Source: Anaerolineae bacterium
Lineage (GTDB): Bacteria > Chloroflexota > Anaerolineae > J036 > Brachytrichaceae
NCBI GenBank assembly: GCA_947476335.1
Contig: CANJQH010000007.1
Coordinates: 1 to 64,000 of the forward strand
Direction of reading: 5' to 3'
DNA length: 64,000 nt
A program made the translations under genes and the position numbers. Of the stretch, positions 14,108-54,300 are shown one piece after another (position 1 is the first letter of the stretch; each line of letters opens with the position of its first letter). The notes beneath the pieces were generated by a model that worked only from the letters and a program-made list of their open reading frames with translations, was not told where the DNA came from and ran no database searches.

Positions 14108-15238
14108 ATGATGCTCCGGGTGTCGCATTCGTTGAGTGTTTCTGAACTGGCGCTCTATTTTCTGCGCCTCGGCATCATCGGCTTCGGTGGCCCGCCGGCG
14201 CACATCGCACTGATGCGCACCGACCTCGTCGAAAAGCGCTGCTGGCTCACATCCGAACAATTTGCAACCGACCTCACCACGGCGAATCTGCTGCCAGGGC
14301 CAACCTCAACTGAAATGGCCATTTACATCGGCTATCGCATGCGCGGGCCACTCGGCGCGCTCATCTCCGGCTGGTGCTTCATCCTGCCAGCGGCACTGCT
14401 CGTCGGACTACTGGCCTGGGCATATGTGACATGGGGTGGACTAAGCTGGATGCAGCATCTGCTCTACGGCGTAAAGCCAGTAGCTTTCGCACTAGTGCTT
14501 CACGGCCTGCTGCAAATGGTGCGCACTACACCATGGACGCCACCGCATGCAGTAATTCTTCTGACCGCCTTCGCACTCCTGCAGTGGACTGCGATCGACG
14601 TCTTGCTAATCTTCCTGCTCGCAGGCATGGCAGCGTTACCATCGCTGCGCAAAACGACACCAGCGACATTGTTCATCTCAGCCACCACTATCACAAGCAC
14701 AAGCATCGTCGCAGCACCGCTTTTGTCCGTACTGTGGGAATTTCTCAAAATCGGCACCGTCATCTACGGCGGCGGCTTCGCACTCATCGGCGTGCTGCAA
14801 CAGACGATCGTCATCCGCCTTGGCTGGCTGACGCAACAACAATTGCTGGATGCCATCGCAGTCGGTCAGAGCACACCCGGACCGGTCTTCACCACAGCGA
14901 CATTCATCGGCTATCTCGTCGGGGGTGCGTCGGGCGCGGCGCTCGCTACCATCGGCATTTTCGCTCCAGCATTCGTCTTCGTGCTCGCCGAAAATCTGCT
15001 GTTGTCTCGCCTGAAACAGGCGCCACAAATGCGCCGGTTTCTACAGGGAGTCAATATCGCAGTGATCGCCAGCCTGGTGCACGCGGCCATTGCACTTGGC
15101 AGCAGCGCACTCATCGACCCGATTGCCTTACTGCTGTGTGCAGCAGCGTTCGGCGCGCTGTGGTGGAAAAAAATCGACGCCCACTGGCTAGTGGGCGTCG
15201 GTGTGCTGGTCGGCCTTAGTCGACTCGCAATATTTTGA
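14108..15238 (+). CDS. chrA: Chromate-transporter family protein, two-domain ChrA type
   Basis: This 376-residue membrane protein has two homologous halves, each beginning with the CHR signature: FGGPPAHIALM and LPGPTSTEMAIYIGY in the first, YGGGFALIGVLQQTIV and QSTPGPVFTTATFIGY in the second. Such proteins export chromate using membrane potential, though many uncharacterised members may carry other anions. The ATG at 14108 gives the usual length. Its 3' end overlaps greA by 23 bases in convergent orientation. Confidence 0.87.
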   Translation: MMLRVSHSLSVSELALYFLRLGIIGFGGPPAHIALMRTDLVEKRCWLTSEQFATDLTTANLLPGPTSTEMAIYIGYRMRGPLGALISGWCFILPAALLVGLLAWAYVTWGGLSWMQHLLYGVKPVAFALVLHGLLQMVRTTPWTPPHAVILLTAFALLQWTAIDVLLIFLLAGMAALPSLRKTTPATLFISATTITSTSIVAAPLLSVLWEFLKIGTVIYGGGFALIGVLQQTIVIRLGWLTQQQLLDAIAVGQSTPGPVFTTATFIGYLVGGASGAALATIGIFAPAFVFVLAENLLLSRLKQAPQMRRFLQGVNIAVIASLVHAAIALGSSALIDPIALLLCAAAFGALWWKKIDAHWLVGVGVLVGLSRLAIF

Positions 15239-15692
15239 ATGCAGATGCGCCACCGGGAGTGTTCACCTTCACCTTCACCCCGGCGCGCTTGCCCATCAGC
15301 ACGTTGCCAAGCGGTGACACATTTGAAATTTTGCCTTCAACGGGGTTGGCCTCGGCCGGTCCGACAACCTGGAAAGTTTCTTCCTCGGTGTACCCCTCTT
15401 CGCATACAGTGACACGACTTCCCATGCGCACTTCACCGTCACCACCGACTTCGCTGATGATTTCAGCGCTTTTCAGCATACGCTCAAGCGAAAGAATTTT
15501 GCCTTCGAGAAAACTCTGTTCTTCCTTGGCTGCCGTGTAATCGGCGTTTTCAGAAAGATCTCCCTGCTGAATAGCTGCACGCAAGCGATCGGCAAGCTCG
15601 ACCTTTCTGACGTCCGTTAGAAACTTAAGTTCATCGCGCAATTTCTGTGCGCCTTCCGCAGTAAGGTATGTCTTGTTGTCCGATGCGTCCAT
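15216..15692 (-). CDS. greA: Transcription elongation factor GreA
   Basis: The 158-residue protein has the full GreA architecture: an N-terminal coiled-coil hairpin (LTAEGAQKLRDEL to SLERMLKSAE) with the acidic tip GDLSENADYTAAKEEQ that acts in RNA polymerase's secondary channel, and the C-terminal FKBP-like domain (ISNVSPLGNVLMGKRAG). It rescues backtracked polymerase. The start is fixed by family length; the long upstream open frame runs through element C and is spurious. Confidence 0.95.
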   Translation of the reverse strand: MDASDNKTYLTAEGAQKLRDELKFLTDVRKVELADRLRAAIQQGDLSENADYTAAKEEQSFLEGKILSLERMLKSAEIISEVGGDGEVRMGSRVTVCEEGYTEEETFQVVGPAEANPVEGKISNVSPLGNVLMGKRAGVKVKVNTPGGASAFKILRVD

Positions 15693-15734
15693 GCGGAGAA
15701 TTCTAATCCAGCCATACCGAATTCCGTAACAGAG

Positions 15735-15918
15735 GGGTGCATTCGCCAAAAGGGGCAAACTTTCGGCCGCCGGCGATCGGCACTGAACTGATTGGAATCC
15801 TCGAAACGCGCTATCTCCCTCCCCCTTCGGGGGAGGGAGATAGCGCGTTTCGAGGGACTTACCAACGATGGGCCACGCGATGGCGGATGACCAAATCCCC
15901 TTTTTGGCGAATGCACCC
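15735..15918. mobile_element. Element C, 184-bp element with 9-bp target duplication
   Basis: The ends are inverted repeats GGGTGCATTCGCCAAAA (left) and the complement with two extra bases on the right. Flanks are the exact 9-bp direct repeat GTAACAGAG (15726-15734 and 15919-15927). The centre (15799-15854) is a perfect 26-bp-arm hairpin, CCTCGAAACGCGCTAT down to CCCCCTTCGGGGG, resembling the element A hairpin. Immediately right lies another GTAACAGAG plus GGGTGCATCCGG, a remnant of a second end. It has no coding capacity. Confidence 0.85.
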
Positions 15919-16024
15919 GTAACAGAGTAACAGAGGGGTGCATCCGGAATAAATGACACGAGTCACCTGCGAGTGTGATGTCATTCACTGCCAATCCTCA
16001 GCTTACAGACATACGATATTCGGC

Positions 16025-17106: not shown

Positions 17107-17159
17107 CGAAACACGACATCACCCGCCGCCCTTTGGGCGATGGGTGATGTCGTGTTTCG
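17107..17159. repeat. Perfect-arm hairpin after the nuclease-like gene
   Basis: CGAAACACGACATCACCC pairs with GGGTGATGTCGTGTTTCG around a GCCGCCCTTTGGGCGAT tip. It begins and ends like the element A hairpin (CGAAACAC/GTGTTTCG) but has different internal bases and no element A ends nearby. It could serve as a terminator. Confidence 0.75.
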
Positions 17160-17163
17160 CAGA

Positions 17164-17192
17164 TTTCTCTCTACTCGGGTTTAGCCACTCCC
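17164..17192 (+). repeat. Dispersed 28-bp motif, copy 2
   Basis: TTTCTCTCTACTCGGGTTTA followed by GCCACTCCC matches the copy at 12044-12071 with few changes. Confidence 0.6.
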
Positions 17193-18127: not shown

Positions 18128-18322
18128 TCAGGCCTCGATTGATATTTCCCGTAACTACTCAGGCCAGCTATTTTTCCAACGCGAAACACACTATTCTCTC
18201 CCCCGAAGGGGGAGAGAATAGTGTGTTTCGCGGGAAATACTGATTTGGGCCTGAGTAGTTACTATTTCCCGCATTACACGCACCTGTTTCGCGTTGAAAA
18301 ACCGACTGACCTGAGTAGCTAC
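18128..18322. repeat. Old element A copy interrupted by a younger copy
   Basis: The outer sequence (GTCAGGCC... at 18127-18142 and GCATTACACGCACCTGTTTC... to GACCTGAGTAGCTAC at 18308-18322) is a diverged element A. The intact copy at 18151-18262 sits within it, and the host bases TATTTCCC are duplicated on either side. The old copy has lost its hairpin. Confidence 0.85.
18151..18262 (-). mobile_element. Element A, intact 112-bp copy (nested)
   Basis: It has complete terminal repeats and hairpin (CGAAACACACTATTCTC arms, CCCCC-GAA-GGGGG tip). The exact 8-bp flanks TATTTCCC lie at 18143-18150 and 18263-18270. It is inserted into an older element A copy. Confidence 0.95.
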
Positions 18323-21262: not shown

Positions 21263-21323
21263 GTAACTACTCAGGCCAGCTAGTTTTCCTACGCGAAACA
21301 CTGATTTGGGCCTGAGTAGGCAC
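21263..21323 (-). mobile_element. Element A derivative lacking the hairpin (61 bp)
   Basis: Both ends are present (GTAACTACTCAGGCC and CCTGAGTAGGCAC) with CCTACGCGAAACAC joined directly to TGATTTGGG, so the central hairpin is deleted. Flanks AAATCATC (21255-21262) and AAATAATC (21324-21331) match at 7 of 8 positions and probably represent the old target duplication. Confidence 0.85.
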
Positions 21324-26819: not shown

Positions 26820-26931
26820 GTAACTACTCAGGCCCAAATCAGTATTTCCCGCGAAACACACTATTCTCTCCCCCTTCGGAGGAGAGAATAGTGTGTTTCG
26901 CGTTGGAAAAATGGCTGGCCTGAGTAGTTAC
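26820..26931 (+). mobile_element. Element A, intact 112-bp copy
   Basis: It has complete ends and hairpin, with one mismatch at the tip (CCCCCTTCGGAGG). Flanks GACAAAAA (26812-26819) and GACAAAAG (26932-26939) match at 7 of 8 positions. The left flank begins inside the stop codon of the E1 beta gene. Confidence 0.93.
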
Positions 26932-31157: not shown

Positions 31158-31207
31158 AGCTCAATTTTTTGAAAGTTAAAAGTAGATGGTCACAGTAGAT
31201 ATTCCTA

Positions 31208-31297
31208 AGTGAGTCGCCAAAAGTTCTGGCGGCAGATTCGCCTCCCCCGCTTTGCGGGGGAGGCGAATCTGCCGGACAAAACTTATGGACAGGAACT
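31208..31297 (+). mobile_element. Element B, 90-bp copy
   Basis: Imperfect inverted ends are AGTGAGTCGCCAAAAGTT and, on the complement, AGTTCCTGTCCATAAGTT. A perfect 21-bp-arm hairpin (31230-31250/31254-31274, CGGCAGATTCGCCTCCCCCGC) lies inside. The dinucleotide TA flanks both sides, as expected for Tc1/mariner-IS630-type insertion. Confidence 0.85.
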
Positions 31298-31299
31298 TA

Positions 31300-31369
31300 G
31301 TCACCGTCCATAATTTCTCGGACCAGTCAGTTGTCCAACACGAAAAATTGAGATGCCTGAGTAGCTGCA
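31300..31369. repeat. Degenerate element A remnant
   Basis: GACCAGTCAGTTGTCCAACACG and GATGCCTGAGTAGCTGC follow element A with many changes. It adjoins the element B copy. Confidence 0.5.
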
Positions 31370-37610: not shown

Positions 37611-37655
37611 GGCCTGAATCGTTAACGTGACTCGGCAAGGTAGCAAGTCGCGCTG
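37611..37655. repeat. Remnants of element A end and element D ends
   Basis: GGCCTGAATCGTTAAC resembles the right terminus of element A. It runs into TTAACGTGACT and GGTAGCAAGTCGCG, which match the two ends of element D with the interior gone. Confidence 0.5.
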
Positions 37656-37745
37656 AGTTCCTGTCCATAAGTTTTGTCCGGCAGATTCGCCTCCCCCGCA
37701 AAGTGGGGGAGGCGAATCTGCCGCCAGAACTTTTGGCGACTCACT
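37656..37745 (-). mobile_element. Element B, 90-bp copy
   Basis: The copy is inverted relative to the one at 31208. Right flank is TA (37746-37747) and left flank is TG, so one side of the expected TA duplication has mutated. The 21-bp hairpin arms have one mismatch at the tip. It ends 18 bases before the creatininase-family gene. Confidence 0.85.
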
Positions 37746-37763
37746 TAGTTACGGAGAAATTCA

Positions 37764-42858: not shown

Positions 42859-42942
42859 GAACGCGTTGTGCGCTGAACGGCGGCGGTATGACGTCAGCGT
42901 CATGACGTACATGCAGACGAGGCAAGTGTCTAACAGGCTCTA

Positions 42943-43032
42943 AGTGAGTCGCCAAAAGTTCTGGCGGCAGATTCGCCTCCCCCGCAAAGCGGGGGAGGCA
43001 AATCTGCCGGACAAAACTTATGGACAGGAACT
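42943..43032 (+). mobile_element. Element B, 90-bp copy
   Basis: It is nearly identical to the copy at 31208, with TA on both sides (42941-42942 and 43033-43034). The hairpin arms differ at one position. It lies just upstream of the AT-rich acetyltransferase gene. Confidence 0.88.
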
Positions 43033-43086
43033 TAGCATTGGCGCTATCGCTGGTTGTGCAAGACCTCTTGCGTAAATAATTGCTTT

Positions 43087-52116: not shown

Positions 52117-52905
52117 GTGAAGTTATTCCTGCGCCGCCTGTTCGGATTCGACTATGCCGACCATATTTCTCTGCCGAAGCAGACCCGCACGGGTCTGACA
52201 TATTTTTATAGGGACGCAGTGTTTGCATTTTTTTCTGACGCGTCCTCGGCCAACTACATTAATCTTTTTCTCGTGTCGCTGAAAGCGAGCAACACTCAGA
52301 TCGGTTTCCTCACCACTTTCGTGCAAATTCTGACCGCGCTCGCGCCATTGCCAAGAGCAACGATCGCCGAACGCACCAGCCGTTATCGGGCCAATATCCT
52401 CGCGCCAGCATTCGTCGCACGCATAGGCTGGTTCGCACTTGCACTGCTCCCCTTCCTCTCACTCGGCCCGGCAGCTGTGACAGCCGCGATCACCATCTTC
52501 GGCGCCCGCATATTTCTGATGGCGTGGTTGAGCGCACCATGGACGGCATTCGTTGGCCGTCTGGTTCCTGCATATGTGAGCTACATGGCCACGCGCAACT
52601 TCGGCGGCGGCCTCGCCACGACGCCAACAATGGGCATCCCTATCGTCATCCTCGCCGGATCGCTGTGGTCGGGCCACGAATTGTCCAGCTTCAATACGCT
52701 GCTCACTGTCACACCCGAAAACGGCCGCGCAAATTTCATCGCACTGCATATGTTCGCCATCTCGCTCTTTGCCGCCGTCGGGCCGGCCATCGGCGACGCA
52801 CTCGTCGACACGATCGGCTTCTTCCCATTCTTCGCTGTCTCAGTGACGCTGCGGCTGGCAGTTGGCATTCTCCAGAATGTACTCACCAGACCCAACCCAT
52901 CATGA
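52117..52905 (+). CDS. MFS transporter paralogue with internal in-frame deletion
   Basis: The 262-residue product is a close paralogue of the next gene (LRRLFGFDYAD, ANYINLFLVSLKASNTQIGFL, RNFGGGLAT, MGIPIVILAGSLWSGHELSSFN) but lacks about 161 residues between RNFGGGLAT and TPTMGIPIV, which removes the middle membrane helices. Start and stop are intact, but transport is unlikely. The GTG at 52117 matches the paralogue's start; an ATG at 52048 would overlap the previous gene. Its stop overlaps the next ATG. Confidence 0.75.
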   Translation: MKLFLRRLFGFDYADHISLPKQTRTGLTYFYRDAVFAFFSDASSANYINLFLVSLKASNTQIGFLTTFVQILTALAPLPRATIAERTSRYRANILAPAFVARIGWFALALLPFLSLGPAAVTAAITIFGARIFLMAWLSAPWTAFVGRLVPAYVSYMATRNFGGGLATTPTMGIPIVILAGSLWSGHELSSFNTLLTVTPENGRANFIALHMFAISLFAAVGPAIGDALVDTIGFFPFFAVSVTLRLAVGILQNVLTRPNPS

Positions 52906-54182
52906 TTTCAACATTGCGCCGGCTCTTCGGCTTCGACTACGCCGACGGTCATAATCTTCCGCCACGCACACGACGCGGGCTGACTTTTTTTTACTGGGAC
53001 GCCGTCTTCGCACTGTTGTCTGACTCGTCGTCAGTCAATTACGTGAACCTGTTCCTCGTTTCGTTAAAAGCGACGAATGCACAAATCGGTTTTCTCGCAA
53101 CGATCGTACAGATCGTGAGTGCAATTGCTCCGCTTGGAGGCGGCGCAGTCGCTGAGCGCACCGGCCACTATCGGGCGAACATCCTCAAGCCATCGTTCAT
53201 CGCGCGCCTGTTCTGGTTCATGCTGGCGCTGCTGCCGTTCATGCCCCTCGGGCCGGCAGCAATAACGATTTCGATCACCATCTTCGCCGTGCGCGCGTTT
53301 TTCTTCGCATGGCTGCAAGCGCCATGGACAGCGTTCGTCGGCAAGCTCGTACCAACGGAAATTCGCGCCAGCTATCTTTCAATGCGCAATTTCGGCGGCG
53401 GCCTCGCCACCATCATCGGCACCATGCTCGCCGGCTGGATCGTCACTATCATTGGTCCACCAGGTGGCTATCAGGTCATCTTTGTCATCTCGGGCATCAT
53501 CGGCATGGCGGCACAGTGGGCGTTTTCGAACATCCCCTTCGAAGAGCCACAGCTCGCAGCGCAGCCAGCGCCGCGATTCAAGCTCCGACGCATCATCGAC
53601 AACACCATGGAAATGCTGCGGCGCTATCCAACGTTCGCACGCCTGCTCGTGTGCGACTGCGCACTCGCACTTGCCGTCGGCATCGGCGGCCCATTCATTC
53701 AGGTCTACCAGGTGCGCGTGCTCGGCTTCAGTGCGGGTATCGTCGGCCTGATGGTGTCAGGCGAAATCGCCATGAACATCATCATGCAACGCGTGTATGG
53801 CTCATACGTAATCCCACGCTTCGGCGAGCTGCGCGTGATGCGCTTCCTGCGACCGCTCACCAGCCTCGTCCCATTCGCATGGCTGTTCGCCACGACACCG
53901 GCCATGGGCATCCCGATCGTGATGCTCGCCGGAACACTCTGGTCCGGCCACGAACTTTCAAGCTTCAACACACAGCTGCACCTTACGCCGGAAGCAGGTC
54001 GTGCAAATTTCATCGCACTACACATGTTCGCCGTCTCGCTCTTCGCCGCCATCGGGCCGGCCATTGGCGGCGCACTCGTCGACACCATCGGCTTCTTCCC
54101 GCTCTTCGCTGTGTCGGCGGCACTGCGCGTCGGCGCAGGCATTCTGCTGAACGTGATGTTCAAACACAAGACGGCACACTGA
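52902..54182 (+). CDS. Major facilitator superfamily transporter
   Basis: The 426-residue protein has about 12 membrane segments. It begins MISTLRRLFGFDYAD with FFYWDAVFALLSDSSSVNYVNLFLV as the first helix and has a conserved loop SMRNFGGGLATIIGTMLAGW. No substrate motif is visible. The ATG at 52902 overlaps the stop of the truncated paralogue. The stop TGA shares two bases with the target duplication of the following element A copy. Confidence 0.83.
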   Translation: MISTLRRLFGFDYADGHNLPPRTRRGLTFFYWDAVFALLSDSSSVNYVNLFLVSLKATNAQIGFLATIVQIVSAIAPLGGGAVAERTGHYRANILKPSFIARLFWFMLALLPFMPLGPAAITISITIFAVRAFFFAWLQAPWTAFVGKLVPTEIRASYLSMRNFGGGLATIIGTMLAGWIVTIIGPPGGYQVIFVISGIIGMAAQWAFSNIPFEEPQLAAQPAPRFKLRRIIDNTMEMLRRYPTFARLLVCDCALALAVGIGGPFIQVYQVRVLGFSAGIVGLMVSGEIAMNIIMQRVYGSYVIPRFGELRVMRFLRPLTSLVPFAWLFATTPAMGIPIVMLAGTLWSGHELSSFNTQLHLTPEAGRANFIALHMFAVSLFAAIGPAIGGALVDTIGFFPLFAVSAALRVGAGILLNVMFKHKTAH

Positions 54183-54188
54183 AAAAAT

Positions 54189-54300
54189 GTAACTACTCAG
54201 GCCCAAATCAGTATTTCCCGCGAAACACACTATTCTCTCCCCCTTCGGGGGAGAGAATAGTGTGTTTCGCGTTGGAAAAATGGCTGGCCTGAGTAGTTAC
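54189..54300 (+). mobile_element. Element A, intact 112-bp copy
   Basis: It has complete ends and a perfect hairpin with the CCCCC-TTC-GGGGG tip. Exact flanks GAAAAAAT lie at 54181-54188 and 54301-54308. The left flank begins inside the MFS stop codon. Confidence 0.95.

Follow-up and report, generated by a model that had tools for sequence, protein, structure and literature searches.

How MITE families whose interiors do not resemble a parent transposon come by their cores is, to our knowledge, not well explained. The question is raised by a short element lying between divergent genes, upstream of greA and not at a gene end, in the 64,000-nucleotide stretch of DNA analysed here (the window), which is part of a 3.42-Mb draft genome (G000; 125 contigs, 92.7% complete) whose GreA has its nearest matches, at 69-72% identity, in Thermoflexales, Anaerolineae and Roseilinea MAGs, pointing to the Chloroflexota. 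A first-pass annotation had claimed an element of 184 bp (element C) with ends of its own and an exact 9-bp duplication, and such an element is indeed present and has no internal coding gene (Table 1). Its ends, of 21 nt each, are complementary at 95%, the 9-bp target duplication GTAACAGAG is exact on both flanks, and the region 15726-15935 folds with a z-score of -11.2 (0 shuffles equally good). No Rfam family was matched at the gathering threshold in the window, and a known RNA identity for the hairpin was ruled out for want of such a match. The greA frame is open across the whole of element C (15216-15959, minus strand), so a mechanical gene caller may wrongly extend GreA at the N-terminus, to 247 aa. 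To the right of the element a third GTAACAGAG is followed by GGGTGCATCCGG, as had been noted; its earlier reading as the trace of another end stands less firmly, as the stretch is possibly either the remnant of an old element end or a repeated target of a preferred tandem-repeat type.

Table 1. Positions in the window of element C, its parts and the related elements discussed in the text.
Feature	Position	Strand	Remarks
Element C, assigned to ISKra4-type MITEs, 184 bp	15735..15918	+	upstream of greA, 42 bp from its start codon (15692, minus strand)
Left terminal inverted repeat of element C, GGGTGCATTCGCCAAAAGGGG	15735..15755	+	
Right terminal inverted repeat of element C, CCCTTTTTGGCGAATGCACCC	15898..15918	-	
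Left target-site duplication of element C, GTAACAGAG	15726..15734	.	
Right target-site duplication of element C, GTAACAGAG	15919..15927	.	
Hairpin of element C, CCTCGAAACGCGCTATCTCCCTCCCCC	15799..15855	.	perfect 27-bp stem, 3-nt loop TTC
Arm y (left in the window copy of element C), CAAACTTTCGGCCGCCGGCGATCGGCACTGAACTGATTGGAAT	15756..15798	+	from the alignment of 30 copies
Arm x of element C, minus strand inward ..GGCCCATCGTTGGTAAGTCC	15856..15897	+	resembles arm x of element A
Third GTAACAGAG (15927-15935), then GGGTGCATCCGG (15936-15947)	15927..15947	+	1-base overlap with the second GTAACAGAG
Element A copy, assigned to IS66-type MITEs, 112 bp	18151..18262	-	hairpin 18180-18232
Element A copy	26820..26931	+	hairpin 26850-26902
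Element A copy	54189..54300	+	hairpin 54219-54271
Copy of a third family (E)	17107..17192	.	hairpin CGAAACACGACATCACCCGCCGCCC 17107-17159; right end GGGAGTGGCTAAACCC (minus strand) 17177-17192; left end unrecognisable

The ends of element C can be linked to a transposase through related genomes. The ISKra4 family model (NF033572) finds many transposases in sister genera, and complete ISKra4 elements of one of these (genomes G016 and G021) carry the ends GGGTGCATTTCAGTTTTGGGGC and GGGTCTATTTCAGTTTGGGGGC and 8-9-bp duplications, with a protein that passes the curated cut-off of the model (208.7 vs 205 bits); the element C end GGGTGCATTCGCCAAAAGGGGC matches GGGTGCATTTCAGTTTTGGGGC of these NF033572-positive elements. 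Both genomes have a heavy ISKra4 load (47 and 20 matches, respectively), and their transposase is split over two reading frames. In genome G022 the end GGGTGCATTCGCTAGCGGGGGC follows a fragment of the ISKra4 C-terminus that matches weakly (22.8 bits). Further ends in G022, identical to the 22-bp C end but for one mismatch, lead, as judged by eye, into a reading frame that begins MTQANLKTELMAEIEAEVDALVEW and resembles a portion of the sister genus's first ISKra4 frame. Element A, the family with which the first-pass annotation had compared the hairpin of C, and whose hairpin is present in the three tabulated copies and elsewhere, has GTAA ends. The reading frame of a 487-aa IS66 transposase (NF033517, 314 bits; PF03050) in G006 reaches its stop codon within the A-type end GCCTGAGCAGTTAC, G022 has an IS66 match at a distance of 33 bp from such an end, and an 8-bp target duplication can be seen by eye in the flanks of A copies such as L033, L034 and L040. 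Judged by these linkages, element C is an ISKra4-type MITE, its ends and 8-9-bp duplications matching those of ISKra4 elements in relatives, and element A is an IS66-type MITE, its ends adjoining IS66 transposases in relatives. Thus, C and A belong to unrelated end families and would depend on two unrelated transposases, which supports the earlier claim that a different transposase acts on C. Neither a match to the ISKra4 model NF033572 nor an IS66 transposase was found in the source genome, a draft at 92.7% completeness, so that any present mobility of the elements is putative, although a MITE need not have its partner transposase in the same genome.

Element C has approximately 40 copies in the source genome, of which about 30 are full length with 88-93% identity by BLAST and are fairly uniform in arms and stem. 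Most are flanked by 8- or 9-bp target duplications, and a duplication of 7-9 bp was found in 24 of 28 copies when at most one mismatch was allowed. Matches to its ends number 105+95, versus 3+4 for a reversed control pattern; those of element A are far commoner (472+461), and those of the E family, with GGGAGTG ends, number 39+38. An additional C-like end lies within 70 bp of 6 of the 28 C copies, compared to 7% of random genome positions, and an additional copy of the target duplication lies within 45 bp of 6 of the 28, compared to 3.7% in a swap control. Such extra ends or duplications, seen at 15919-15947 in the window and at L015, L012, L013 and L029, could have arisen by serial insertion at one site, as traces of excision, or through a preference for tandem repeats. 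One locus considered as an autonomous C element, L061, was rejected as a different small element with other contents.

Several other repeats were encountered. Family B (CTAAGTGAGTCGCC ... GGACAGGAACTTAG, with the hairpin CGGCAGATTCGCC) occurs in the window at 31205-31300, 37653-37748 and 42940-43035, and is recurrently nested at the same place within A elements (about 20 cases in 1.74 Mb, for instance at C4:50567-50701, C18:20675-20808 and C8:53728-53868, where the C-number is that of the contig). Separate long palindromes, with CCCGTCTTCTAAGAAGACGGG or CCCGGCTTCTAAGAAGCCGGG at the centre and in some cases an outer stem CGAAACGAAGG, fall outside families A-E (C9:45046, C5:83225, C25:9784, C17:37234 and C8:41614); the palindrome at C17:37234 has only its first bases in common with CGAAAC-type hairpins. 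Two diverged pairs of direct repeats, one of 283 nt at 78% and one of 205 nt at 70%, lie at 52364-54169 in the window and are probably duplicated coding segments.

For comparison of the cores, all long hairpins were listed and sorted by their flanks across 1.74 Mb of the source genome. Read inward from CGAA, the half-stem of A is CGAAACACACTATTCTCTCCCCC (with the variants CGAAACACGCTATTCCTTCCCCC, CGAAACATGCTATTCC and CGAAACGCGCTATTCC), that of C is CGAAACGCGCTATCTCCCTCCCCC, that of D is CGAAACATGCCATCGCCCGCC and that of E is CGAATCACGGCATCGCCCCGCC, while the window copy at 17107 has CGAAACACGACATCACCCGCC. The A and C half-stems align with a Smith-Waterman score of 15, where 600 shuffles average 6.0 and peak at 11, and scores of 17 for A2 with C and of 16 for D with the 17107 copy also lie above a shuffle maximum of 11; the null consisted of composition-matched shuffles, a control set of real palindromes, which held leftover A hairpins, having been left out. 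The E half-stem scores 8-9 with those of A or C, inside the shuffle maximum and weaker than A with C, and groups with the D and 17107 stems, and the unrelated B hairpin scores 8 with A and 8 with C, inside the null. An intermediate stem, CGAAACGCGCTATTCC, is found in an A-ended copy at C8:57317. In anchored comparisons of the flanks (37 comparisons, p values uncorrected), arm x of A resembles arm x of C (p = 0.008), with p = 0.004 for A3_x and C_x and p = 0.002 for both A3_x with E_x and C_y with D_y, and no similarity was found between A_y and C_y. Outside the stem, A and C resemble each other modestly and on one side, and their common part may reach some 10-20 bp past the stem on that side. 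On the evidence of these alignments, the A and C hairpins are homologous and not mere look-alikes, the hairpin of the E family would be more distantly related to the A/C core, and there is good support for the hairpin being shared by descent or transfer. The hairpin as an autonomous unit was rejected, as the CGAAAC-type hairpins of this family in the 1.74 Mb are bordered, on one side or both, by a recognisable end of A, C or D/E-like type.

The same module may extend beyond the genus. A covariance model of the module gave 41, 26 and 54 matches in G001, G019 (genus g2) and G010 (genus g4), respectively, and none to four in the remaining family members; these matches were picked by a model derived from the source genome, a selection that also inflates their z-scores, and the control, run over 150 members of the class, was a shallower search that still gave matches of 38-40 bits in two unrelated genomes. 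The g2 stems read GCCGAAATCACTATCCC, with different flanks, and are suggestive of an older module.

The way in which the stems have changed bears on how a core might be transferred. Hairpins chosen by their pairing hide changes that affect one arm, and copies were gathered by their flanks alone (131 of A and 24 of C), which raised the count of one-arm changes in A from 12 to 40. Among the changed stem positions of A, 39 are complementary changes on both arms (21 distinct states), versus approximately 1.2 expected with independent arms, 40 are on one arm, and 1 is changed on both arms and unpaired, the both-arm count being an upper bound on events, as copies of common descent are not independent. 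Similarly, C has 10 both-arm changes (8 distinct states), versus 0.42 expected and again as an upper bound on events, with 11 on one arm and 0 changed on both arms and unpaired, such that roughly half of the changed positions in either family are altered on both arms. The loop reads TTC or GAA in a ratio of 69:53 in A and 11:11 in C, so that about half of the copies are inverted, these counts also being upper bounds on inversion events. Homogenisation of arms and inversion of the spacer are products of template switching between the arms of inverted repeats, including switching between molecules (PMC8604942), and quasipalindrome-associated template switching also appears in two further reports (PMC8794818, PMC7202029). 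The coupled arm changes and the inverted loops are both signatures of template switching during replication.

In three chimeric copies, the ends of two families meet at the hairpin, at homologous positions. At C31:26715 an A-type left part (GCTCAGGCCTAAATCAGTATTTCCCG) is followed by a C-type inner stem and by the right arm and end of C; at C46:3861 the arms and an end of C on one side are joined to an E-like GGATATCAACTGCG...GTACTCCCC on the other, with CGCGAAACATGC on both arms of the stem; and at C20:7482 a left half of C meets a right half of A, with most of the palindrome missing and an insertion of a B element. A target duplication is absent at all three, so that recombination or deletion is the most likely origin of each, rather than transposition as one unit. 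Furthermore, C-type ends frame unrelated cores elsewhere in the source genome (for instance at C13:54350-54614, with the 8-bp duplication CACGTGAG) and several other cores in the sister genus, so that the exchange of cores between such ends is a general phenomenon. The earlier proposal that the hairpin is a module carried by different terminal sequences gains from the third end family with a related stem, from the chimeras and from these other cores, and the accompanying claim that the A and C hairpins share a design withstood the comparison with shuffles.

Given these observations, a chance likeness of GC-rich palindromes is barely credible. All of the stems are C-rich in their inner part, and the B hairpin also has CTCCCCC, but composition-matched shuffles never attain the A-C score, on which ground chance was rejected, and the chimeras join at homologous positions. 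An improbable alternative is that a host or transposon protein, or a role as terminator, calls for such a hairpin, which different families would then have evolved or kept. Consistent with a function of this kind, related stems recur with different flanks in another genus, and the hairpin at 17107 sits between two rightward-reading genes. The window copy of C, however, lies between divergent genes rather than at a gene end, pairing is not strictly kept, as roughly half of the altered positions in the stem differ on a single arm, and the matches in the other genus were chosen by a model built on the source genome, with single unrelated genomes reaching 38-40 bits. Against such a requirement, too, are one-armed short forms that keep their ends and lack the palindrome, of 61 bp in A (such as 21263-21323 in the window; at least 17 copies in the half of the genome that was sampled) and of 66 bp in E (C26:1842-1907 and C24:36914-36979). 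If these short forms multiplied as such, the palindrome is dispensable for multiplication of the elements.

It is somewhat less unlikely that an ISKra4-ended element enclosed an A-like core on a single occasion, or that both families inherited the core from one ancestor, and that all else is descent with no continuing exchange and with the chimeras as late accidents. One capture per family followed by descent would also yield similar stems, and the chimeras could be deletions between neighbouring elements. The likeness of the C and A x arms extends out to GGCCCA, the roughly 30 C copies are fairly uniform in arms and stem, and the other cores framed by C-type ends indicate that capture of new cores does occur. 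On the other hand, the palindrome itself is the junction in at least three recombinants, and A-ended elements have stems of intermediate type. Taken together, we regard it as probable that C and A are MITEs of unrelated transposases with homologous palindromic cores, and that these cores were exchanged by template switching at the palindrome.

In the mechanism that we favour, the palindrome would prompt a replicating strand to switch template. A switch within one element would copy one arm onto the other and flip the loop, whereas a switch or recombination between the palindromes of two elements would transfer the core, or form hybrids of A with C or of C with E. The same hairpin would in this way land between different terminal sequences, and ordinary transposition would then spread it. 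For transfer between families, template switching is a likely though unproven route, and no inter-element switch was caught in the act. A broader and more tentative proposal, which we consider possible if open to doubt, is that palindromic MITE cores have a second, transposase-independent mobility, in which template switching between families spreads one hairpin across unrelated terminal repeats, both within a genome and among related genera. With hundreds of near-identical copies, intermediates and hybrids in one genome, the acquisition of MITE cores becomes testable, and the dense natural record of co-evolving palindrome arms and flipping loops in mobile elements could be used to measure template switching.

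The literature on ISKra4 MITEs, hybrid MITEs and Roseilinea transposases yielded nothing directly on sharing of a hairpin, and several known systems offer partial parallels. Like element C, the ISKra4-family MITEs have GGG-type terminal repeats, 8-9-bp duplications and no transposase gene; in place of a deleted ISKra4 gene, however, C has at its core a palindrome related to that of another transposon family. The IS66-family MITEs represented by element A share with C the core palindrome CGAAAC...GTTTCG and short target duplications, but differ in their GTAA ends and unrelated transposase. REP and REPIN sequences with their RAYT, a transposase of the IS200/IS605 type (PMC3116915, PMC3733652), also comprise many intergenic palindromes. 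Unlike these, the present elements have target duplications, long terminal repeats and IS66 or ISKra4 partners in relatives, and a REP/REPIN identity fits poorly with terminal repeats and target duplications as clean as these. Quasipalindrome template switching (PMC8604942, PMC8794818, PMC7202029) shows the same combination of arm homogenisation and spacer inversion within one set of repeats; there it is described for single inverted repeats, including intermolecular events, while here it is proposed to act also between copies of different transposon families. Finally, TIMEs and mosaic non-autonomous elements (PMC4133298) resemble the C-type ends in that one set of terminal repeats encloses different core modules. 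The cores of TIMEs are captured plasmid segments, whereas the core described here is a palindrome common to unrelated end families.
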